DNA of 56,083 nt, taken from NCBI GenBank assembly GCA_016191165.1, contig JACPPF010000007.1:1-56083 (forward strand). Reading direction: 5' to 3'. Shown here one piece after another: positions 14,511 through 54,802 of this stretch. The translations under genes and the position numbers were made by a program. The stretch is from Planctomycetota bacterium. Its GTDB lineage: Bacteria; Planctomycetota; Planctomycetia; Gemmatales; Gemmataceae. Every line of letters starts with the position of its first letter. Within the stretch, counting starts at the first letter, position 1. A model generated the notes under the pieces. That model was not told the DNA's origin. It searched no databases and worked only from the letters and a program-made list of their open reading frames with translations.

Positions 14511-16154
14511 ATGAACGATTCGACCCGAATCCTGGTGGACCGACAGATTGCCCGCGTCTGGCGGCGCCTGTTCTTGCAAGTCGCGCTGGATAGTGTCCTC
14601 CTCGGCTCGGCCGTCGGACTGGCGCTGGCGATGTTCTGGTTTCTGGTCAGGCCGTTCGCATTCCCGAATCTCGACGACACGCTGCGCTGGGTTGTGCCTG
14701 GCGGCCTTTTCGGCCTGGGCGTTTTTGCCGGGCTGGGGCTGGCGTGGTTGCGCCGACCGACGCCCGTGGCATCATCACTCGCACTGGATGAACGCTTCGG
14801 CCTGAAGGAACGCGTCACCACCTTCCTGACCTTGCCGCCCGAAACGCTCGACACGCCCGCCGGGCAGGCCTTGCTGAGCGATGTTACGACCCGCCTTGCC
14901 GCGGTGAAGATCGCCGGGGCGTTCCCGTTGAGCGTTTCGTGGAAGCAAGCGCTGCTCCCGGGCGGCGCTTTCGCTCTCGCGCTTTTGGCCGGTCTCGCCG
15001 ATCCCTACCTTGGCGAAATCCGGTTCAGCTCGCGTTCGCTCGCCGATCAACCGCCGGTGCTTCTCGATGCCAAGGAAATTCAAAAGAAGCTCGACGCCCT
15101 GAAGGAGCAGATTCAAAAACGCAACCAGGACGATCAGGGCAAATCCGAGGAGCTCAAGGAGCTTGAAAAGGAATTCGAGAAGCTCTTCAAGGAACAAATC
15201 GACGGCAAGAACGAACAAAAAGTGCGTGAACAGCTCGACAAGATGCAAAAACTCGAAGACAAGATGAGCGACCGCCTCGACGCGCTGCGCGAAAAGGCCG
15301 AGAAGATCGACGCTCTCAAGAAGCAACTCCAGCGCCTCGGCCTGGACCCAGACAAGGCCGCCAAGGACGGGCCCGCCAAGGACTTTGAGGACGCCCTCAA
15401 GAACGGCAACCTCGAAAAGGCCAAGGCCGCCCTCGAAAAAATGGTCAAGGACCTCAAGAACGACAAGCTCAATCCAAAAGAGCGAAAACAGCTGGCCGAG
15501 CGTTTCAAGAAACTTCAGGACAAGATGGAAAAACTGATGAACAACGACGAGCGCGTCAAGCAACTCAAAAAGGACCTCAAGGACGGCAAGATCACCAAGA
15601 AGGACCTCGAACGCGAAATGGAACGTTTCCAGGAACTAAAGGATTTGACCGACCTCGTCGGCGATGCCAAGGACGCGCTCGACGGCGCCGGCAAGGAAGG
15701 CGCGGAACGAGTCGAAAAACTCCTCAAACGCTTTGAAAAGATGGAGCTGACCGACAAGGAAATCGGCGACCTCCTGCGCGATCAAGATGAGCTGGCCAAC
15801 GCGCGCGATCTTCTGATGCAAGCCATGAACGGCGACGAATTCGGCGACGGCGAAGAAGGCAACGGCATGGGCGGAGGCAAATTCCCCGGCGGCCGCCGCC
15901 CCATCGCCAAGAAGGACCCCGACGGCAAGGTCAGCCCGCAGCGAAGCCGCGCCAACGCCAGCCCCAAGGGAATGCAGCGCATCACCGGCTATGCCCGCGG
16001 CGGAACCTTCAGCAAAATCCCCGCCAAGGCCGTCGAAGGCGCCTTCCGCCAGGCGGTCCAGAACGCCCCCGAGGCGCTCGATCGGCAACGCATCCCCGAG
16101 GATGCCCGCGATATCGCCACCAAATACTTTGACAAACTTGGTAACCAGAAGTGA
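14511..16154 (+). CDS. Membrane protein with long Lys/Glu/Asp-rich coiled coil, function unknown
   Basis: 547 residues from ATG 14,511, the first ATG that gives a sensible N-terminus; a 58-codon upstream extension reads through low-complexity text. Two hydrophobic segments (about 20-45 and 60-82) are followed by a soluble region and a third (about 145-165). Residues about 190-430 are almost entirely charged heptad-like helix (for example ELEKEFEKLFKEQ, KKDLEREMERFQELKDL), a long coiled coil. The tail is Gly-rich (GMGGGKFPGGRRP) and then Arg/Lys-rich. A scaffold or envelope-tether role is possible; I do not recognise a family. It is divergent from the rhomboid gene and followed by a perfect palindrome. 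Confidence 0.75.
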   Translation: MNDSTRILVDRQIARVWRRLFLQVALDSVLLGSAVGLALAMFWFLVRPFAFPNLDDTLRWVVPGGLFGLGVFAGLGLAWLRRPTPVASSLALDERFGLKERVTTFLTLPPETLDTPAGQALLSDVTTRLAAVKIAGAFPLSVSWKQALLPGGAFALALLAGLADPYLGEIRFSSRSLADQPPVLLDAKEIQKKLDALKEQIQKRNQDDQGKSEELKELEKEFEKLFKEQIDGKNEQKVREQLDKMQKLEDKMSDRLDALREKAEKIDALKKQLQRLGLDPDKAAKDGPAKDFEDALKNGNLEKAKAALEKMVKDLKNDKLNPKERKQLAERFKKLQDKMEKLMNNDERVKQLKKDLKDGKITKKDLEREMERFQELKDLTDLVGDAKDALDGAGKEGAERVEKLLKRFEKMELTDKEIGDLLRDQDELANARDLLMQAMNGDEFGDGEEGNGMGGGKFPGGRRPIAKKDPDGKVSPQRSRANASPKGMQRITGYARGGTFSKIPAKAVEGAFRQAVQNAPEALDRQRIPEDARDIATKYFDKLGNQK

Positions 16155-16160
16155 TCGCGC

Positions 16161-16226
16161 GTTTAGCCGCACGCCTTTGGCGTGCGCGCCGTGAAGTGCC
16201 CGCACGCCAAAGGCGTGCGGCTAAAC
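16161..16226. repeat. Palindromic repeat, GTTTAGCCGC family, copy 1 (perfect 26-bp arms)
   Basis: The arms at 16,161-16,186 and 16,201-16,226 are exact complements, and each arm folds on itself (CGCACGCC, TTT, GGCGTGCG). It lies six bases after the coiled-coil gene and ten before the convergent exported-protein gene, a position suited to bidirectional termination. Confidence 0.85.
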
Positions 16227-18584: not shown

Positions 18585-18651
18585 GTTTAGCCGCTCGCCT
18601 TGGGCGAGCACGGTCGCGAAGGCCGCGCTCGCCCAAGGCAAGCGGCTAAAC
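18585..18651. repeat. Palindromic repeat, GTTTAGCCGC family, copy 2
   Basis: The arms begin GTTTAGCCGCTCGCCTTGGG and end with the complementary CGGCTAAAC, with one mismatch over 25 bp. It lies between divergent guaB and hom, ending 12 bp before the hom start, so it would be in the hom leader transcript. Confidence 0.85.
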
Positions 18652-23168: not shown

Positions 23169-23234
23169 ACCAGCCCGGAGCGCCAGCGACGGGGAAGGCT
23201 CGCGATACCCCCGTCGCTTGCGCTCCGGGCTGGT
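23169..23234. repeat. Palindrome, ACCAGCCCGGAGCG family, copy 1
   Basis: The 26-bp arms (ACCAGCCCGGAGCGCCAGCG... and its complement ending GGGCTGGT) differ at one position. It lies between the kinase stop (23,244) and the recG start (23,151), both on the minus strand. The second copy is at 54,737. Confidence 0.85.
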
Positions 23235-24919: not shown

Positions 24920-24981
24920 GTTTAGCCGGTCGCCTTCGGCGAGCGCGACGCTCGCGCACGCCGAAGGCGTTGCGGCTCAAC
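24920..24981. repeat. Palindromic repeat, GTTTAGCC family, copy 3 (diverged)
   Basis: GTTTAGCCGGTCGCCTTCGG pairs with CCGAAGGCGTTGCGGCTCAAC, with several mismatches. It spans the end of mutM, encoding that protein's tail, and reaches to within 12 bp of the kinase start. Confidence 0.7.
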
Positions 24982-25806
24982 AATTGTACCCAAAACCTGG
25001 CAGCGCGGGCAATAATGCGTCGAACGCCCCGCCAGCACGATCCTCACAATCGTCGTTCGGCAGCGACGGCAGGGTTCGCCGGTTCGGCCATAAACCCGGA
25101 ACTCGTTCTGCATTTCGCCCTTCAAACCCGACCCGCCGATGTAGTCGCGAATGCTGGAGCCACGCTTCTCGATGGCGCGTGTCAGGACGGCAACCATCGC
25201 CAGGCGCAACGATTTCGCTTGCTTGCGCGTGACCGCATTGCCGAGGGTCGTCGGATGAAGCCTTGCCTCGAAAAGCGATTCGTCCGCGTAGATGTTGCCG
25301 ACGCCGGCGACGATCGTTTGGTCGAGGAGGATCGCCTTGAGGTTGCGCCGCGTCGCGTTCAAGCTGCCAAACCAACGGCCATCGGTCAGGTCGAACGGCT
25401 CGGGACCAAGGCTGATTTGGAGAAAATACCGATCTGCGTGTACCATGGTGGGAAACACCGTGACACTCCCGAAACGCCGCACGTCGCGGAAGCGCAGCTC
25501 GGTTTGGTCATCGAGCGTGAAAACGACGTGCGTGTGCGCCTCGCGCGGCTGATCGGCGGAGGCGACGGTTAGCTGCCCGGTCATGCCCAGATGGGCGACC
25601 AGGCACGGAATACCCAATTCGATGACGATCCACTTGCCGCGGCGCCGAATGGCGTGAACGCACCGGTCGAGCAGCGTTGCCTCCCATGCGCGCGACCACT
25701 TGCGGCGCAGCGATTTCCTGCTCACGGCGATCTTGACGAACGATCGGCCAAGCAAAAGCGGGCGCAAATCGCGTACGACGGTTTCGACTTCGGGCAATTC
25801 GGGCAC
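24922..25806 (-). CDS. mutM: Formamidopyrimidine-DNA glycosylase
   Basis: 294 residues. It removes oxidised purines (8-oxoguanine, FaPy) and nicks the abasic site. The catalytic N-terminal Pro is in MPELPEVETVVRDL; the conserved Lys is in RRRGKWIVIEL (about 54-64). The helix-two-turns-helix is QTIVAGVGNIYADESLFEA, and the C-terminal zinc finger has Cys pairs CRRC and YCPRC 16 residues apart. Normal members end soon after the finger; here about 18 more residues (EPQRLRRARASRSPKATG region) come from a palindromic repeat into which the gene runs before its stop. It is divergent from the transposase gene across an AT-rich 54-bp leader. Confidence 0.95.
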   Translation of the reverse strand: MPELPEVETVVRDLRPLLLGRSFVKIAVSRKSLRRKWSRAWEATLLDRCVHAIRRRGKWIVIELGIPCLVAHLGMTGQLTVASADQPREAHTHVVFTLDDQTELRFRDVRRFGSVTVFPTMVHADRYFLQISLGPEPFDLTDGRWFGSLNATRRNLKAILLDQTIVAGVGNIYADESLFEARLHPTTLGNAVTRKQAKSLRLAMVAVLTRAIEKRGSSIRDYIGGSGLKGEMQNEFRVYGRTGEPCRRCRTTIVRIVLAGRSTHYCPRCQVLGTIVEPQRLRRARASRSPKATG

Positions 25807-25860: not shown

Positions 25861-25886
25861 GTTTAGCCGCTCGCCTTTGGCGAGCG
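25861..25886. repeat. Palindromic repeat, GTTTAGCCGC family, copy 4 (single arm)
   Basis: One arm (GTTTAGCCGCTCGCCTTTGG then CGAGCG) folds as a small hairpin and is followed at once by AAGGGGG, the probable ribosome binding site of the transposase. The partner arm is absent on this side. Confidence 0.8.
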
Positions 25887-25901
25887 TGAAGGGGGCATGG
25901 C

Positions 25902-26510
25902 GTGGTCCTTGCTCATCATCTCATTTTCACGGCTTACGGTTTCTGGCTGCCGAACGATCCGCGCGGCTCATGGTCTGATTTTGTCGGCTCGTGGGATTTG
26001 CTGCGCTATGGCAAAGCCACCAAGACGACGACGCGCCGCTCCGTCGCCGGGGTTCCCCACGACCGGGAACTTCGTGAACAGGCCAAGAGGGCCTTGAAAA
26101 ACCCTCCGGTGCAATTCTCGGACGCCCAGATTCAAGCGGTTGGCCAGGGCATTGCCGAATCGGCTCGTAAGGGCGACCTCAAGATATGGGCGTGTGCCGT
26201 AATGTCCGATCACATTCACCTCGTGGTGGCGCGACATCGATGCCTGGCTGAACAGATCATCAATCTCACGAAGGGAGCGATAACCAGAAAATTGCTGGAC
26301 CTGGAATTGCACCCATTTCAAACGCTCGCTGGCAATCATACCCGCGTGCCCACATGCTGGGCGGCCAAGGGATGGAAGGTATTTCTCGATCGGATCGAGG
26401 ATATCCAGCGGGCGATCGCGTATGTTAACAACAATCCAATCAAGGAAGACCTACCGGCCCAGTTGTGGGATTTTGTCACGCCGTTTGACCCGAATATTGA
26501 AGGCGTTTAG
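25902..26510 (+). CDS. REP-associated tyrosine transposase (RAYT, Y1/IS200-like)
   Basis: 202 residues from GTG 25,902, which follows the AAGGGGG stretch. An out-of-frame ATG at 25,897 gives no protein. The N-terminal block [19 protein letters not shown] is the hallmark of this transposase branch. The two-His metal site is in [13 protein letters not shown] (about 105-117), and [23 protein letters not shown] (about 168-190) is the C-terminal block with the catalytic Tyr in AYVNNNP. It cuts and joins single-stranded hairpin DNA. Its last two codons and stop (GGC GTT TAG) come from the downstream palindrome. The gene looks intact. Confidence 0.9.
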
Positions 26511-26566
26511 CCGCTCGCCTTTGGCGAGCGTTCTACACCGCGCTCGCCAGAGGCGAGCGGCTAAAC
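26505..26566. repeat. Palindromic repeat, GTTTAGCCGC family, copy 5
   Basis: The arms at 26,505-26,530 and 26,541-26,566 are complementary except for one base. It overlaps the transposase stop codon and ends eight bases before the trpB start, so it forms the trpB leader. Confidence 0.88.
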
Positions 26567-31208: not shown

Positions 31209-31484
31209 AACCGTCGTCGCTGGCGCTTGAACCGATTATGCCGATGGGGAAACCCGGAGAATTCAGGGCAACCCCGCGGATTTTTCCGAAAGGCTAGGCC
31301 AGTTTCAGATAGAATTGCGGGACCGGCAAGGCCCGGAACCAACGCCGGCCGCCGAAACAAATGTTGTCAGCCGGCCAAACGCCAGCGGCTCTGTCTCGTT
31401 ATTTGATAGGGGCGGGTAAAAACAACCATTCGCGCCGAGCCGGGAATGCGCTTCGAGACTCGCGAAACCAATCGTGGAATGACT

Positions 31485-34217
31485 ATGCACTTGTCCACCA
31501 AAGACATCTGGAATCTCCTTCGCCGTCGCACAAACTCCAAAAGCCTGCCCAAGATGAAGCGGCTGTCCCGCTTGACCGTTGAGGTCTTGGAGGATCGCTG
31601 CACACCCTCAGCGACCGCGTCGAGCGTGTTGAATGGGTTCGCGTTCATCGACGGCAACGGCAACGGCGTCTTCGACACCGGCGAGGCAGCGATCCCGGGC
31701 GTCGTCGTGAAACTGACCGGCAGCACCAGCGCGCCTGCGGCGGCCAACCTGACCGACAGCGCGGCACGGATCCCGCTAACCTTCAACGTCAGCGCCATCA
31801 CCGATTCGACCGGTGCGTATCATTTCCAAAATGTCCTACCCGGAACCTACCAGCTCAAGGCCGGTCCCGCCGCCGGCGTGCTCAACAGCGGGCCGGTCAC
31901 CATCGGCAATATCCTCGTCAATGACCAGGGACACGCCGTCTCGCGCAACCTCGGCCTGCAGGGCGGCCTCGACCCGGCGCTCGTCTCGATGCGGCAATTC
32001 CTCACGACCACTGCCGTGGCCGACTACGGCTACACGACCACCAGCAACGGCATCGCCGAAACGAATTTCCGCGCCAACAGCAAACCAATCGAGAAGACGG
32101 CTCTCGCCGATCTCCAGATTGCCAAGAACAGCCCCGATTCGATTATTAACCTGGCCGGCCATTTTAGCGATCCGGACTTTACCAATAGCCAGGTGACGTT
32201 CAACATCACCAACGGCACGACCCAGGTCAAACTCAAGGTGGACCTATTTGACAAGAAGGCCCCGCAGACGGTGGCGAATTTCTTCGATTACATCGCGTCC
32301 GGCGCCTATGACAACAGCATCTTCCATCGCCTTGCCGCCAGCTTCGTGTTGCAAGGCGGCGCGCTCAAACTCGCCAACAGTGCTGGCACGAACCTCGATC
32401 TGGTCGATTTGCACAACCTCAAGGTGCCCAACGAATTCGGGACCTCCAACACGTTTGGCACCCTGGCGATGGCCCAGTCAGGCAACGACCCCAACAGCGC
32501 CACCAACCAGTTCTTCTTCAACCTCGTGAACAACGCCTCCAGCCTCGACGCGCAGAAGTTTGCCGTCTTCGGCCAGCTGGCGGATGCGGCCTCGCGCACC
32601 GCGTTGACCTCCCTCGGCACCACCCCTAATTTCGATGAAAGCACCACGACGTTCGCAGTGAACCATGGCACCGCGCTACTCAACTCCGTGCCAATCAAAA
32701 AGGCGGGGTATACCAACAACGACGCGGAATTCCCGACGAACCTGGTGGCGGCGGACTACCTGGTCATTAACAGCGTCAGCGTCGATAAGCGCGACGAGTT
32801 CTTGAAATACGAGATCGTGTCCAACACCAACCCAGACCTGGTGACGGCAACGCTTGATCCGAACTCGAACGAGTTGCTGAAATTGCAATACGCGACCGAC
32901 GAAGCGGGCGCGGCAACGATCACAATTCGCGCGACCGATCGCTTCGGCGCCACGCTCGATGTCAGCTTTGACGTGACCGTCGCCAACACCGCCCCGACCG
33001 CGAGCGTCACGCTTACGCCAGACGCCCCCGCGCCGACAGCGACTTTAACCGCGACGGCGACCGCTTCCGACGCCAACGGCGATACGCCCATCACCTTCAC
33101 CTACAACTGGAGCGTCAACGGCGGCGCCCCGGTCAAGACCACCACCGGGACCACGAGCACGACGGATACGCTCGACCTGTCGGCTCCGGAAGTGGGCGCC
33201 CTCAACCCGGGCGACACCATCACCGTCACCGTCACCCCCAACGATGGCACGGACAACGGCGCCAATGCCTCGGCGAATGTGACCATCAATCAGCCGCCGG
33301 CCTTCAGCGGCGATACCGTTCTGTCGCCGACGTCGCCGAGCCTGACCGGTTCAACGACCGTCACCGTGGCTGCCACGGATCCCGATGAGGACCCAGTCAC
33401 GTTCACTTACGTTTGGGAAGTCAACGGCACGGTTGTTCGCTCGGTGACCAAGACCGCGGTGAGCGATACGCTCAACCTGGATAACTTACGCGACCTGAGC
33501 AACAATCCGGTCCCGACGCAGGCAGGCGACCAGATCGTCGTGACCATCACGCCGAGCGACGGCAAGACCACCGGCGAAACGACCACTGCCGCCACGACCA
33601 TCAACCAGCCCCCGGTCCTTGCCGCGGAGTTAACGCCGGCTGGGCCCAACAGCAACGACCTGATGACGGCGACGGTGACCTCCTCGTCCGACCCGGACCT
33701 CGACGCGCTCAATTACACCTACACGTGGTACGCGCGCGGCGCCCCGGTCCACGTCACGCAATCGACCACGAGCACCACGGATGTCTTTGACCTCTCCACC
33801 GTGCCCAATCTCGTCGCGGGTGATCTCGTCGAGGTATTCGTCGTCCCCAACGACGGCAAGATTGATGGGGCCGGCGTTCTCCTCGGTCAAACCGTGAGCA
33901 ACACCGCGCCCGAGGCAACGTCGGTCTCGATCGCGCCCGACAACGCGCTCGCCGTGACGTTGCTGGCAGCCACGCCTGTTGGTTCAGATTTCGATATGGA
34001 CCCGGTAACCTTCACCTACCAGTGGCTGAAAAACGATGTGCTGATCGTTGACGCGACCTCGGACACGCTGATTCTGGCGGATGTCCCAGGCGGCGTGAAC
34101 GTGGACGATACCTTCGCCGTCATCGTGACCCCCAACGATGGCGCGACGAATGGCGCCGAGTTTATCAGCCCCGCGGTGACGGTTGCCACCATCGATCCGA
34201 CGATCACGCTGGTTTAG
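31485..34217 (+). CDS. Exported LEDR-motif protein with SdrD-like, cyclophilin and Ig-like domains
   Basis: 910 residues from ATG 31,485, which has GGA six bases upstream; ATG 31,446 and 31,554 are alternatives. The basic stretch and RLTVEVLEDRCTPSA (about 26-40) form the planctomycete LEDR N-terminus. Next is an SdrD B-like domain (FAFIDGNGNGVFDTGEAAIPG to FQNVLPGTYQLKAG). At about 230-390 is a cyclophilin-type peptidyl-prolyl isomerase domain (DLFDKKAPQTVANFFDYI, IFHRL, FGTLAMAQSGNDPNSATNQF, FAVFGQL). The rest is four or more cadherin/Ig-like repeats of about 100 residues, each closing with VTPNDG or a variant. It is a large surface or secreted protein. Its stop TAG comes from the following mobile element. 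Confidence 0.85.
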   Translation: MHLSTKDIWNLLRRRTNSKSLPKMKRLSRLTVEVLEDRCTPSATASSVLNGFAFIDGNGNGVFDTGEAAIPGVVVKLTGSTSAPAAANLTDSAARIPLTFNVSAITDSTGAYHFQNVLPGTYQLKAGPAAGVLNSGPVTIGNILVNDQGHAVSRNLGLQGGLDPALVSMRQFLTTTAVADYGYTTTSNGIAETNFRANSKPIEKTALADLQIAKNSPDSIINLAGHFSDPDFTNSQVTFNITNGTTQVKLKVDLFDKKAPQTVANFFDYIASGAYDNSIFHRLAASFVLQGGALKLANSAGTNLDLVDLHNLKVPNEFGTSNTFGTLAMAQSGNDPNSATNQFFFNLVNNASSLDAQKFAVFGQLADAASRTALTSLGTTPNFDESTTTFAVNHGTALLNSVPIKKAGYTNNDAEFPTNLVAADYLVINSVSVDKRDEFLKYEIVSNTNPDLVTATLDPNSNELLKLQYATDEAGAATITIRATDRFGATLDVSFDVTVANTAPTASVTLTPDAPAPTATLTATATASDANGDTPITFTYNWSVNGGAPVKTTTGTTSTTDTLDLSAPEVGALNPGDTITVTVTPNDGTDNGANASANVTINQPPAFSGDTVLSPTSPSLTGSTTVTVAATDPDEDPVTFTYVWEVNGTVVRSVTKTAVSDTLNLDNLRDLSNNPVPTQAGDQIVVTITPSDGKTTGETTTAATTINQPPVLAAELTPAGPNSNDLMTATVTSSSDPDLDALNYTYTWYARGAPVHVTQSTTSTTDVFDLSTVPNLVAGDLVEVFVVPNDGKIDGAGVLLGQTVSNTAPEATSVSIAPDNALAVTLLAATPVGSDFDMDPVTFTYQWLKNDVLIVDATSDTLILADVPGGVNVDDTFAVIVTPNDGATNGAEFISPAVTVATIDPTITLV

Positions 34218-34352
34218 CCTCATTACCGTTCGTCAAGCAGAGGAATACCAGCATCACGCGCAAGCGTGGGGGGTTTGCACGCGTCCCAAAACCCCCACGC
34301 TTGCGCGTGGGGCTGGTCAAGTGCTCTTGCACGAACGGCATTGCGCCAAAAC
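34212..34352. mobile_element. 140-bp MITE-like element, copy A
   Basis: The ends are imperfect inverted repeats (GTTTAGCCTCATTACCGTTC and the complement of GTTTTGGCGCAATGCCG). Inside are complementary blocks ACGCGCAAGCGTGGGG and CCCCCACGCTTGCGCGTGG. It starts within the stop codon of the LEDR protein and ends exactly at the stop of the convergent DUF6065-like gene. Copies B and C are at 45,384 and 49,696. Confidence 0.8.
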
Positions 34353-35102
34353 CTACTGGCGAAACTCGCCCACGCGCAGCTTGGTCTGGTGCTCGGCGAA
34401 CGCCTTCCCTTCGCTGTCCAGTCCCAGCATGTAGGCGCGTTGCCAACCTTTCTTGACGGCCTCTTCGTCGATACTCAACAGCGCTTCATTGAAATCCACG
34501 CGCGTATCCTTCCACTGGTTGTATGCCCGCGCCAGTTCGGGCTCCGCCTCCAGGGGTCGGCGCACCGGGTCGAGCGATTCCGCCAGGCCGCGCGGGACCG
34601 GCACGATCATGCAAATCGGTTCACCTTCATCGAAGGCGACGGCATGGTTGGCCCGCGTCAGACGCCAGTTCATGGTGAACGTATAGGGACTCCAGTCGGT
34701 CTCAACGATGCCTTCGAGCGGAAAGATACCGTCCTTGGGGGAATTGGCGGGACCTTTCACCCACAGGTTGATGCCCGGCGGGGTGCGGAAAAGAAAGGGG
34801 ATACCGATGGTGAGCACGCCCTCCCCGAAATGGCTGCCGATGCGGTCGTCGCGCCGCCCGGACGGGAACGAAACCGCCACGTCACCCGGTCCGGGACCGC
34901 CATTCCAGATGACATGGAAGGCGACAGGGCTTCGCAGCACCCAACCTGCCTGATTGGCGATGACGAGCGGCAAGCAGCGATAGGCGTTGCGCACCGCCGT
35001 CTGGTCCATCCAGGCGCGGTCCACCGGCGCGGGCTCCAGAGCCATTGCCGCGTTGGCGTAAACCTCAAAGGCAATCAGCAGGCGATTCGGTTCGTTCGTC
35101 AT
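34353..35102 (-). CDS. DUF6065-like protein
   Basis: 249 residues with no signal peptide. The segments INLWVKGPANSPKDGIFPLEGI, split here as INLWVKGPANSPKDG and FPLEGIVETDWSPYTFTMNW, and then GEPICMIVPVPRG, recall the DUF6065 family, which is of unknown function. The N-terminus (CLPLVIANQAGWVL) and the centre are beta-rich, the C-terminal 60 residues helical. It lies downstream of the WD40 kinase on the same strand, separated by a perfect 24-bp palindrome, and its stop codon abuts a mobile element. The family call is by eye and moderately sure. Confidence 0.7.
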   Translation of the reverse strand: MTNEPNRLLIAFEVYANAAMALEPAPVDRAWMDQTAVRNAYRCLPLVIANQAGWVLRSPVAFHVIWNGGPGPGDVAVSFPSGRRDDRIGSHFGEGVLTIGIPFLFRTPPGINLWVKGPANSPKDGIFPLEGIVETDWSPYTFTMNWRLTRANHAVAFDEGEPICMIVPVPRGLAESLDPVRRPLEAEPELARAYNQWKDTRVDFNEALLSIDEEAVKKGWQRAYMLGLDSEGKAFAEHQTKLRVGEFRQ

Positions 35103-46692: not shown

Positions 46693-47649
46693 ATGAACAG
46701 CAACAATCAGCTCAAAGTCTTCAGCGGCCGCGCCAATGTGCCGCTGGCGGAGAAAATCGCGCAGTATCTGGGCGATCCGCTCGGCAAGATCGAGTTGAAG
46801 AACTTCCCCGACGGCGAGTTCTGGGCGCGCATCGATGAGGACGTGCGCGGGCGCGATGTTTTCGTGGTGCAATCGACCTGCCATCCGGTCAACGAAAACC
46901 TGATGGAACTGCTGATCATGCTCGACAGCTTCAAGCGCGCCAGCGCCGCCCGCGTCACGGTCGTCTTGCCTTATTACGGGTACGCCCGGCAAGATCGCAA
47001 GGCGGAAGGCCGCGTGCCGATCACCGCGAAACTGGTCGCCAACTTGCTCACGTCCGCCGGGGCGCAGCGCGTGCTGACGCTCGACTTGCACGCGGCACAA
47101 ATTCAGGGCTTCTTCGATATCCCAGTCGATCACCTTTACGCCAGCCCGGTCTTGCTCGATTACGTCTATCGGCTCGGCATTGATCGGCGCGAAATCATTG
47201 TCCTCAGTCCCGACGAAGGCAGCGTCAAGCGGGCGTTGCGCTATCAGAAAAAACTGGACGTCAACATGGCCATTGTCGATAAGCGCCGGGTCAGCGCGGA
47301 CAAGGTCGAGATCGCCAATTTGATCGGCGCGTCGCTCGAAGGCAAGATCGCCTTGATCTTCGACGACATGATCTCCACGGCAGGAACGGTTGTCGGCGCC
47401 GCGCGCACGGCGCGGACGATCGGCAAGGCCAAGGCGGTCTACATTCTGTCCACGCATGGCGTGCTGTGCGGCGACGCCATCAAGAACCTGCGTGAGGCCC
47501 CCGTCGAACGCGTTGCCATCACCGACACGATCCCGCTGACGCCGGAGAAACGGCTGCCCAACATCGACGTCCTGACCGTCGCGGAGTTGCTGGCCGACGG
47601 GATCAAGCGAATTCACTTCAACCAGTCGGTGAGCGAGTTGTTTGTTTAG
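46693..47649 (+). CDS. prs: Ribose-phosphate pyrophosphokinase
   Basis: 318 residues, exactly the class I length. It makes PRPP from ribose 5-phosphate and ATP for purine, pyrimidine, His, Trp and NAD synthesis. The N-terminus LKVFSGRANVPLAEKIA and FPDGEFWARI are followed by the ATP/flexible-loop region PYYGYARQDRKAEGR (about 95-109), the metal site TLDLHAAQIQGFFDIP (about 133-148) and the PRPP-binding loop IFDDMISTAGT (about 220-230). The stop is the TAG of a palindromic repeat beginning GTTTAGCCGC, so the last codon (Val) may also derive from it. It supplies PRPP needed by the pathway that trpA and trpB finish and by purine synthesis (guaB). Confidence 0.97.
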   Translation: MNSNNQLKVFSGRANVPLAEKIAQYLGDPLGKIELKNFPDGEFWARIDEDVRGRDVFVVQSTCHPVNENLMELLIMLDSFKRASAARVTVVLPYYGYARQDRKAEGRVPITAKLVANLLTSAGAQRVLTLDLHAAQIQGFFDIPVDHLYASPVLLDYVYRLGIDRREIIVLSPDEGSVKRALRYQKKLDVNMAIVDKRRVSADKVEIANLIGASLEGKIALIFDDMISTAGTVVGAARTARTIGKAKAVYILSTHGVLCGDAIKNLREAPVERVAITDTIPLTPEKRLPNIDVLTVAELLADGIKRIHFNQSVSELFV

Positions 47650-47705
47650 CCGCTTGCGGCTTGGCGTTCGCACGGCGCCAGGCGAACGCCAAGCCGCTTG
47701 CGGTG
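47644..47705. repeat. Palindromic repeat, AGCGTTCGC family with GTTTAG end, copy 3
   Basis: GTTTAGCCGCTTGCGGCTTG leads to the inverted pair GGCGTTCGC and GCGAACGCC around GGCGCC. It exactly fills the gap between the prs stop (47,649) and the stop of the convergent GTPase gene (47,706). Confidence 0.8.
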
Positions 47706-48711: not shown

Positions 48712-48774
48712 GTTTAGCCGCTCGCCTTGGGCGAGCGATCGCGAACCCCGCTCGCCAGAAGCGAGCGGCTAAAC
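48712..48774. repeat. Palindromic repeat, GTTTAGCCGC family, copy 6
   Basis: GTTTAGCCGCTCGCCTTGGG pairs with CTCGCCAGAAGCGAGCGGC then TAAAC, with a few mismatches. It lies between the exported-protein gene stop (48,782) and the GTPase start (48,698), co-oriented minus-strand genes. Confidence 0.85.
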
Positions 48775-48781
48775 CCGGTCA

Positions 48782-49657
48782 TTATTTCTTGAGCCGCAGC
48801 GTCGTTGTCTGCGTCAGGTTGACCGTTTGCCCTTCGATGCCCATCTGCATCGTTTGGGTAAGGGTGGATTCCACGATACGGCCCAGCTTGTTGTCGAAGA
48901 GGATCTTGCCCGTGCCCTTGGCGTCTTTGAGGGTTGCTTTCACCGTGGCCTTTGGGTCCGGTTCGATTTTCTTGGTCGACTTGACGCTGATTTTTTCGAG
49001 GGTGCCGCCGCCGCTTGGGGCCGCGCCCTCGTAGGTGTAGGTGTTTTCGGTAACGCCTTTGCCGAAGGGGGATTTTTCGTCGCTCTTGTTGGTCCAGGTT
49101 TTCCCCTTCGCCATGGCGCCAGCGGGGAAGACCAGATTGCTGACCAAGGACTTGAAGGAATCGGGATTGGAGAAGTCGCCGAACTTGTCGGCGCCGGGGA
49201 CCGATTTGAGCGCCTTGAGCGTTTTCTCGGAAACCTTGATGTCTTTCATCTCCCCGGTCGGGAGCATCACGCCCGCCACTTCCATGCCGCCCAGCGCCTT
49301 GATCATCGGCGAGAGGATTTTGCCGACGGCATCTTCTGGTTCATTCTTGTCGCTCGAATCGACTTCAACCTTGCCGGTCAGCGCGTCGAGCGAGATCTTG
49401 GCGTGTGTGACCTGGAGCTGGACCTGGGCGGATCCGTCCTTGTTGACGTCGAGCACGTTGAGCGACATCGCCATCGCCATGTTGGTCTTGGTGTCGATGT
49501 TGATGCCCATGACATTGATGGACATGTTGGTTTTCTGTTCCACGGCATAGGGGAGGTTTTGGCCCTTTTTGAACTGATAGCGCAGCGTGGTCTGCGCGGC
49601 CGCCGGCGCGGCGAGAATCAGGACGGCAAGCCAGGCATATCGGAAGCAGCGCAACAT
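48782..49657 (-). CDS. Exported DUF6263-like protein of unknown function
   Basis: 291 residues from ATG 49,657 (MLRCFRYAWLAVLILAAPAAAQ, a clear signal peptide); a 30-codon upstream extension overlaps repeat sequence and is discarded. The mature protein is beta-rich: TTLRYQFKKGQNLPYAVEQK at the start, then strands such as AQVQLQVTHAKISLDA, and a late block KILFDNKLGRIVESTLTQT. This layout resembles the DUF6263 family of exported proteins. No catalytic motif is seen. It is followed on the same strand by the GTPase gene, with a palindrome between. Confidence 0.72.
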   Translation of the reverse strand: MLRCFRYAWLAVLILAAPAAAQTTLRYQFKKGQNLPYAVEQKTNMSINVMGINIDTKTNMAMAMSLNVLDVNKDGSAQVQLQVTHAKISLDALTGKVEVDSSDKNEPEDAVGKILSPMIKALGGMEVAGVMLPTGEMKDIKVSEKTLKALKSVPGADKFGDFSNPDSFKSLVSNLVFPAGAMAKGKTWTNKSDEKSPFGKGVTENTYTYEGAAPSGGGTLEKISVKSTKKIEPDPKATVKATLKDAKGTGKILFDNKLGRIVESTLTQTMQMGIEGQTVNLTQTTTLRLKK

Positions 49658-49695
49658 GAGCAAGGCCTTTCTGCGGAAGAAGGTGGTGGAACCAT

Positions 49696-49835
49696 GTTTA
49701 GCCGCGATACCGTTCGTAAAGCGGAGCGATACCAGCCCCACGCGCAAGCGTGGGGATTCGGGCAGCCTCCCAAAACCCCTAGCTTGTGCTGGGGGCTGGT
49801 CAGGTAACCTTCGACGAACGGTATCGCGGCTAAAC
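49696..49835. mobile_element. 140-bp MITE-like element, copy C (intact)
   Basis: Perfect 22-bp inverted ends (outermost GTTTAGCCGCGATACCG...) enclose two hairpins, ACCAGCCCCACGCGC...GCGTGGGG and CCCCTAGCTTGTGCTGGGGG, the latter ending GGCTGGT. It has no coding capacity. It lies in the 359-bp gap between divergent genes; the remainder (49,836-50,016) shows no gene. Confidence 0.88.
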
Positions 49836-50016: not shown

Positions 50017-51516
50017 ATGTTCAAAAAAGCTGCGCGAATTGCCTCGGTTTTCATCTTGATCGGAATGGGCGTATTCTGCGCCGATCCCACGACCTCCCAG
50101 GAGGCGGTGCCGCCGCCGATCCAGGTCCAGCCGGCGCCGCTGGCATCCACGTCCGGGAGCGAGGTTCCCAAGGGCGTGGAAGTGCTGGCGCGTGGGCCGG
50201 TGCATGAGGCATTCGCGTCGCCGTTGACCGAGCCGAAGGCGACGCCCGTACTCGCCAAGAAGCCGCCGCAGCCCATTGAAGAGATGCCGCCGGAAGACAG
50301 GCCGGAAGGGGACGCGGTGTGGATCGGCGGGTACTGGGCCTGGGATGACGATCGCGCCGATTTCCTCTGGGTCAGCGGTTGCTGGCGCGTTCGTCCCGCC
50401 GGCAAGGAATGGGTTCCGGGGTACTGGCGCGCCAATGCCGCCAACTGGCAGTGGGTCTCGGGGTTCTGGACGGCGGCGCAGGAGGACTATCGCCAGGGCG
50501 TCACTTATTATCCCGAGCCCCCCGCCCCGCCCAACATCGCCCCGCCAGGGGAGCCGCCCCAGGCCGATGCCTTTTACATTCCCGGTTACTGGATGTGGAG
50601 CGGCACACGCTATGCCTGGCGCGCGGGCTACTGGGCGCGCGTGCGCCCCGGTCACATCTATGTCTCGTCTCACTATCGCTGGACGCCCAGCGGCTACGTC
50701 TTCGTTTCCGGTTATTGGGATTATGCCGTCTCGCGCCGCGGCGTGCTATATGCGCCGATCACCGTCAACATCGGCCTGGTCGGGCCTCGCTATGTGTACA
50801 CGCCGTACTATGCCGTGCGCGACACGATCGTGCTGGATACGCTGTTTGTCCGCCCAGCGTTCGGGGCCTATTATTTTGGCGACTACTATGGCCCGCGCTA
50901 TGTCTCGATTGGCTTTGAACCGGTGGTCGTGTTCGCCCGGCGTCGGCACGATCCGATCATTGCCTATGAACGGTATGTCTATCGCGACAATCCGCGCTGG
51001 CTGGACACGCGCGTGACGCTGGTGATCGAACGCAACGCCGGCCGGGCGCCGGTGCCGCCGCGCACTCTGGTACAGCAAACGACGATCATTCAGAAAAATG
51101 TCACGATCAACAATGTGACCAAGGTGACGAACGTGACGAATGTGCTCGCGCCGACGAGGACGGTCGTCGCCGCCAGCGGAGGCAAGAGCGTGCCGCTCAG
51201 CACAGCCGCCCGCGTCCAGGTGCGCAACAACACCCAGGTCGCCCAGCGAACGCTCGCCGCGGAACGCCAAAAGTTGGAAACGGGACGAGGCGCGGGCACG
51301 CCGCTCACCCGGCCGCAATCCACCGCGCTCAAGGTCCCCGCCACCACGCCCCGCACAGGCGTCAAAGGCGGCAACGTCACCCTGCCAAAAACGAAGATCA
51401 CCGACCGCGGGCGCGATCCGTTCACCACCAGGGACCGCCCCGGCATCGGCACGACCCCACGCGACAAGGGCAAGGGCGGCCCCATCCCACTGCCCAAGAA
51501 AAAGAAAAAGCTCTAA
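50017..51516 (+). CDS. Exported YXWGXW-repeat protein
   Basis: 499 residues from ATG 50,017 (MFKKAARIASVFILIGMGVF, signal peptide), with GGGAG about ten bases upstream; a 55-codon upstream extension is not signal-like. After a Pro-rich stretch (about 30-90) the centre has repeated aromatic motifs WIGGYW, WVSGCW, WVPGYW, WVSGFW, IPGYW and FVSGYW (about 105-245), the pattern of YXWGXW-repeat proteins. Tyr-rich strands follow, then an Asn/Thr/Val-rich segment (TIIQKNVTINNVTKVTNV) and a Lys/Arg/Pro-rich tail ending PLPKKKKKL. A surface or matrix role is plausible; activity is unknown. Confidence 0.82.
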   Translation: MFKKAARIASVFILIGMGVFCADPTTSQEAVPPPIQVQPAPLASTSGSEVPKGVEVLARGPVHEAFASPLTEPKATPVLAKKPPQPIEEMPPEDRPEGDAVWIGGYWAWDDDRADFLWVSGCWRVRPAGKEWVPGYWRANAANWQWVSGFWTAAQEDYRQGVTYYPEPPAPPNIAPPGEPPQADAFYIPGYWMWSGTRYAWRAGYWARVRPGHIYVSSHYRWTPSGYVFVSGYWDYAVSRRGVLYAPITVNIGLVGPRYVYTPYYAVRDTIVLDTLFVRPAFGAYYFGDYYGPRYVSIGFEPVVVFARRRHDPIIAYERYVYRDNPRWLDTRVTLVIERNAGRAPVPPRTLVQQTTIIQKNVTINNVTKVTNVTNVLAPTRTVVAASGGKSVPLSTAARVQVRNNTQVAQRTLAAERQKLETGRGAGTPLTRPQSTALKVPATTPRTGVKGGNVTLPKTKITDRGRDPFTTRDRPGIGTTPRDKGKGGPIPLPKKKKKL

Positions 51517-51542
51517 CGCGATGCCCTCATGCCATTGCGACT

Positions 51543-51765
51543 ACCAGCCCCCGGCGCTAGCCGGGGGGTGAAGCGACCTTGCTAACACCAGCCCCCGGCG
51601 CTAGCCGGGGGGTGAAGCGACCTTGTTAACACCAGCCCCCGGCGCTAGCCGGGGGGTGAAGCGACCTTGTTAACACCGGGGGGTGAAGCGACCTTGTTAA
51701 CACCAGCCCCCGGCGCTAGCCGGGGGGTGAAGCGGCCCTTACCCCCCGGCTAGCGCCGGGGGGCT
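51543..51765. repeat. 44-bp tandem repeat array ending in an inverted half unit
   Basis: Units start at 51,543, 51,587 and 51,631 (each 44 bp, ACCAGCCCCCGGCGCTAGCC then GGGGGGTGAAGCGACCTTG(C/T)TAAC). A fourth at 51,675 has lost 17 bp, and a fifth begins at 51,702. The array closes with CCCCCCGGCTAGCGCCGGGG, the reverse complement of the unit core, so the last copies can fold into a long hairpin. The only difference between units 1 and 2/3 is C/T near the end, indicating recent duplication. Confidence 0.92.
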
Positions 51766-54736: not shown

Positions 54737-54802
54737 ACCAGCCCGGAGCGCAAGCGACGGGGCAGATGTCCGCTGGATCCGTCGCTTGCGCTCCGGGCTG
54801 GT
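54737..54802. repeat. Palindrome, ACCAGCCCGGAGCG family, copy 2 (perfect 24-bp arms)
   Basis: ACCAGCCCGGAGCGCAAGCG then ACGG at 54,737-54,760 is exactly complementary to 54,779-54,802. It lies between the two co-oriented paralogues, as copy 1 lies between co-oriented genes. Confidence 0.88.

Follow-up and report, generated by a model that had tools for sequence, protein, structure and literature searches.

Among described systems, the closest to the elements reported here are the GTAG-tagged REPs, whose termini often supply a TAG stop codon (Di Nocera et al. 2013, PMC3733652). Because stop supply by GTAG-REPs has already been described, our finding adds a planctomycete example, tagged with GTTTAG, to a known kind. 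The two groups share short palindromes with a 5' tag, head-to-head dimers, a position just behind gene 3' ends and proximity to RAYT genes. Unlike the GTAG-REPs, the elements here carry the tag GTTTAG (ATTTAG in relatives), have longer stems, and pair the tag with CTAAAC in the partner REP. As in REPINs (Bertels and Rainey 2011, PMC3116915), units of 60-67 nt consist of two inverted REPs that make up one long hairpin, but the copy number in this genome is modest.

RAYT proteins carry a Y---NP signature (PMC6006769), and REPs immediately behind the rayt stop have been noted before (PMC2817692). The tag has been described as guiding the choice of cleavage site, as in IS200/IS605 (PMC6006769, PMC8266576). 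With the class 2 RAYT/TnpA-REP systems (PMC2817692, PMC6006769), the present locus shares an HUH motif, Y---NP, REPs on both sides of the gene and a REP at the RAYT stop; it departs from them in scoring below the NCBIfam cut-off and in its non-canonical tag, which is not GT[AG]G. Coxiella QMITE2 elements likewise lie at gene 3' ends, and the C-terminus of enhC is coded by the element, or the stop lies at its edge (PMC5896051), but QMITE2 is a MITE of a different family and not a RAYT/REP element.

The window, that is, the whole stretch of DNA analysed, comprises 56,083 nucleotides of a Planctomycetota genome (G000), a 7.2-Mb assembly in 183 contigs of which 1.387 Mb was tested for gene ends; samples of about 375 kb each were taken from the relatives G001 and G006. 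Gene calls come from our own hexamer-based caller, not an annotation. The window contains no tRNA (ARAGORN) and gave no match in Rfam, and GTTTAG occurs in it 18 times against 8.2 expected from shuffles. An initial annotation had proposed that three genes in it end in frame on GTT TAG, at 26505-26510 (RAYT), 34212-34217 (LEDR/cyclophilin) and 47644-47649 (prs), and that in each case these six bases begin a repeat. All three in-frame ends were confirmed; the second part holds for the RAYT-type and the ~140-nt elements and fails for prs, as detailed below. The RAYT gene, the REPs beside it and the other REP dimers of the window are as follows:

25861-25887, plus strand: REP copy upstream of the RAYT gene (repeat family D4), identical in sequence to 26505-26531
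25902-26510, plus strand: RAYT gene, 202 aa, ending Val-TAG on the downstream REP dimer (PF01797, E 5e-5)
26505-26566, plus strand: RAYT-type REP dimer (REPIN-like), GTTTAG-hairpin...hairpin-CTAAAC; arms of 27 nt at 96%, fold -59.8 kcal/mol, z -11.2
16161-16226, plus strand: REP dimer lying 6 nt behind the stop codon of gene 14511-16154
18585-18651, plus strand: REP dimer between two gene starts
48712-48774, plus strand: REP dimer, separated by 7 nt from the stop codon of the minus-strand gene 48782-49747

The RAYT protein reaches the cut-off of the Y1 transposase family PF01797 (23.9 against 23) and matches NF047646 (REP_Tyr_transpos) with E 2e-12 and 47.3 bits, below the curated cut-off of 80. 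It has both expected motifs, HIH within MSDHIHL and YVNNNP within AYVNNNP; comparison with solved structures gave no match. REPs stand on both sides of the gene (25861-25887 and 26505-26566), an arrangement that recurs in the loci L255, L264 and others. The closest relatives of the protein come from planctomycete assemblies, which together with the LEDR motif suggests a planctomycete source for the window, and in 6 of 13 planctomycete relatives the gene's own REP supplies the stop: by GTTTAG in L255 and L258, by ATTTAG in L264, and by cgcTAAac in L262, L263 and L267. At L264 the flanking REPs are tagged ATTTAG...CTAAAT and the RAYT stop lies within ATTTAG, an example of a tag that differs among lineages while the stop codon is kept.

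The elements are short palindromes with a fixed 5' tag, present as dispersed copies and inverted doublets (fold z -7 to -11), mostly extragenic and near gene 3' ends. In the 1.387-Mb sample the RAYT-type core carries the GTTTAG tag in 36-37 of 37 copies. We call the elements REP-like, because this tag stands in place of the canonical GTAG/GTGG tetranucleotide. Inspection by eye of 25 paired elements revealed no target-site duplication.

A larger element of about 140 nt supplies the stop of the LEDR/cyclophilin gene:

31446-34217, plus strand: gene for a LEDR-motif protein with a cyclophilin domain, 923 aa (Pfam PF00160, E 7e-27; PF17210)
34212-34217, plus strand: GTTTAG, last codon (Val) and TAG of that gene and left end of the ~140-nt element
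34212-34352, plus strand: degenerate ~140-nt palindromic element; fold -79.8 kcal/mol, z -7.1
34353-35102, minus strand: convergent gene for a 249-aa protein without an NCBIfam match; its stop, TAG at 34353-34355, directly adjoins the right end of the element
49696-49835, plus strand: intact ~140-nt element with GTTTAG/CTAAAC ends

The degenerate element thus fills exactly the gap between the two converging genes. It is 80% identical to 49696-49779 over 84 nt, and its right end reads acgaacggcattgcgccaaaac against ACGAACGGTATCGCGGCTAAAC at 49814-49835. GTTTAG precedes five of the six copies of the ~140-nt core. No orthologue of the LEDR gene was found with confidence, the candidates being 30-38% identical. 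Inside the element lies an ACCAGC/GCTGGT palindrome with arms at 34247-34317. It belongs to a second palindrome family, ACCAGCC..GGGCTGGT, seen at 34247-34317, 49731-49800, 23169-23234 and 54737-54802, nested in the 140-nt elements and also free-standing.

The third of the proposed cases has a different character:

46693-47649, plus strand: prs (ribose-phosphate pyrophosphokinase), ending ..VSELFV TAG
47649-47703, plus strand: prs-type palindrome, (G)CCGCTTGCGGC..GCCGCTTGCGG; fold -47.2 kcal/mol, z -6.5

In the 1.387-Mb sample GTTTAG precedes the core CCGCTTGCGGC in just two of its 42 copies (at prs and at a GNAT gene on contig C21), so that we no longer regard it as the start of the prs repeat, nor this palindrome as a GTTTAG-tagged family member. 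The base adjoining the core is G in 39 of 42 copies, and the bases further 5' are only T-rich. The prs orthologues end ..VSELFV in G001, G002 and G003 and ..VSEMFV in G006, all with GTG as last codon, and stop at TAG or TGA without a prs-type element. Since relatives end in Val with no element present and nearly all core copies lack GTTTAG, the Val of prs is most likely native and its TAG probably so, with the palindrome directly behind.

Does the coincidence of stop and element extend beyond the window? The initial annotation had called for a genome-wide check of enrichment at stops, and the result bears out its expectation. Of 1116 complete called genes in the 1.387 Mb, 16 end in GTTTAG against 3.4 expected from independent usage of last codon and stop (Poisson P 7e-7). 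CC follows in all 16 (CCG or CCT in 15, CCC in one), and a search of the same sample for a GTTTAG-ending gene without this continuation found none. At every one of the 16 the sequence leads directly into GTTTAGCC, which in 15 cases is of the GTTTAGCC[G/T] class; one, C92 58272, has only a short element stub. Across the 7.2 Mb there are 374 GTTTAGCC sites, many of them due to chance, and four copies of GTTTAGCCGCTTGCGG, two of which form the stop of a clear gene. The coincidence is real and not a product of chance.

It is, however, restricted to some element families. Among 35 GTTTAGCC[G/T] ends that face a gene 3' end within 25 nt, 15 fall exactly on the stop and the others mostly 2-13 nt behind it, whereas all 31 GTTTAGCG palindromes at gene 3' ends lie 5-21 nt past the stop and none on it (15/35 against 0/31, P 1e-5). 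Two GTTTAGCG stops in relatives (G001 C4 and G006 C44) show that this family rule is not absolute. The GTTTAGCG palindromes of this genome and its relatives, for example at the G006 prs locus L096, lie mostly 7-16 nt behind stops, often as perfect palindromes that continue into the flanking sequence; in appearance they are closer to transcription terminators than to a stop-overlapping family.

Other repeats were seen at gene ends. Tandem 44-bp repeats with ACCAGCCCCCGGCGCTAGCCGGGGGGT occupy 51517-51762 behind gene 50065-51516. At the 3' end of the minus-strand gene C42 1414 and of its orthologues (L273, L281, L282, L297) there are CCGCTTGCGG-like palindromes at distances that vary by species, which suggests repeated independent insertion at one spot.

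The reading frame of the overlap is strongly biased. Where element and gene share the strand sense, the junction is in the GTT-TAG frame in 15 cases, compared with one or two read-throughs in frames 2 and 3, one of these being a doubtful short ORF. Because such read-throughs are rare, selection probably favors in-frame stops as well. The opposite element end can serve as well, and it gives the window a fourth gene with an element-derived stop, beyond the three first proposed:

24920-24969, plus strand: element (repeat family D4) that gives the Fpg-like gene its TAA (CTAAAC on the minus strand)
24922-25806, minus strand: Fpg-like DNA glycosylase gene, ending ..RASRSPKATG* on the element's TAA

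Relatives of the Fpg-like gene stop about 20 residues earlier (..CQRKRV*, ..CQPV*, ..CQPKRG*), so the gene has been extended, not truncated. A CTAAAC end also provides the TAA of C15 28128-29015 and C30 56958-57944 in this genome. The element-coded tails of read-through genes read ..RASRSPKATG*, ..PRSPEASG* and ..PPEAGG*, and the orthologue of the C30 gene in G001 likewise ends ..PRSPEASG*.

How, then, do genes come to end on elements? Chance recurrence of GTTTAG at gene ends is extremely improbable: GTT is within the ten commonest last codons, though half of these occurrences are the element cases themselves, and a chance origin is at odds with both the excess over expectation and the uniform CC continuation as in the elements. 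The initial annotation had offered two options, that the elements insert preferentially at such stops, or that insertion truncates genes which the element's TAG then rescues. The second makes a clear prediction about protein ends, which we compared by our own reading of alignments with same-genus genomes, relatives that are about 60-90% identical in protein. Nine of the 11 genes that could be compared stop no more than one codon from where their relatives do. The final residue is the same for prs, PfkB (on C26), IspE, enolase, GNAT, GatB and the C92 gene, and the MutS2 and response regulator genes end at most one residue away. Shortening by one or two residues in an ABC-type gene on C45, and the lack of three to six C-terminal residues in a CFA-synthase-like gene, the sole clearly shortened case, are what truncation would leave; given the unshortened remainder, we consider rescue after truncation very improbable for genes with a clear orthologue, a group that does not include the LEDR gene. 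Element-free controls behave alike: among 93 pairs of orthologues the ends coincide in 71% and differ by at most one residue in 83%. In G006 the GNAT and response regulator orthologues end in GTTTAG and carry no element, which is how a site would look before insertion or after loss of an element, and this speaks for insertion at native stops.

It is harder to decide between preferential insertion and random insertion around gene 3' ends, in which the coincidence with stops would simply reflect the survivors, namely copies with GTT TAG in frame or lying behind the stop. Random insertion agrees with the location of most elements close to gene ends, with the near absence of frame-2 and frame-3 read-throughs that selection would leave, and with the few read-throughs that survive with an element-coded tail such as ..PRSPEASG*. 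It is difficult to reconcile with the lengths of the proteins, however. At the density of elements observed behind stops (1.1 per nt), uniform in-frame insertion could yield 15 cases only if truncation were tolerated over about 13 codons, yet 9 of 11 ends fall within one codon (P 2e-6). In addition, the ends of the orthologues look target-like: 21 of 53 end in V, I or L, against a background of 12% (conservative P 0.009), a count that takes as element-free the C45 orthologue (G001, L181), whose terminal GTC TAG lies on a degenerate palindrome and whose omission changes little. The stops of these orthologues are not enriched in TAG (9 of 53) and are mostly TGA or TAA; stop codons turn over, and among control orthologues of genes with TAG in this genome just one of 16 has TAG as well. 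We therefore view random insertion as possible though doubtful, and the first option of the initial annotation as the better supported by the V/I/L ends and the non-uniform placement.

The explanation that we favor, and hold to be probable though well short of certain, is that REP/REPIN-type non-autonomous elements of the RAYT enter genes' native stops or the bases directly after them, and that copies which disrupt the frame are eliminated by selection. The RAYT genes of relatives that end in their own REP and the strong hairpins also speak for it; the missing target-site duplications, the RAYT score below the NCBIfam cut-off and the lack of TAG enrichment among orthologue stops speak against it. 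The RAYT, as an HUH single-strand transposase related to IS200/IS605, would be the enzyme that moves them, and GTTTAG, the 5' tag of the RAYT-type dimer itself, would be the counterpart of the proteobacterial REP tag GTAG. The insertion point would be a native stop codon or a position a few bases from it, presumably through a site preference for stop-like, T-rich ..TAG sequence. If the tag fell in frame on the former stop, the gene would exchange its last codon and stop for Val-TAG at unchanged protein length; a tag behind the stop would be harmless; and copies that destroyed the stop out of frame would mostly have been lost through selection. At prs, where the palindrome comes from another family, the Val-TAG is most likely the gene's own. 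A bolder version, in which the RAYT machinery actively targets stop-like T-rich ..TAG sequence and the guide tag rebuilds the stop upon insertion and so spares the gene, strikes us as rather unlikely.

What determines where REP elements insert is an open question in the field. A stop-containing tag, exact overlap counts, unchanged protein ends and a sister family, GTTTAGCG, that in this genome sample stays off the stops together make a comparative system in which insertion preference can be set against selection. For annotation, some caution is in order, as protein ends of the form Val-TAG or ..PRSPEASG* may derive from a repeat. If stop targeting is true, these elements would have a built-in way of inserting beside genes without harm.
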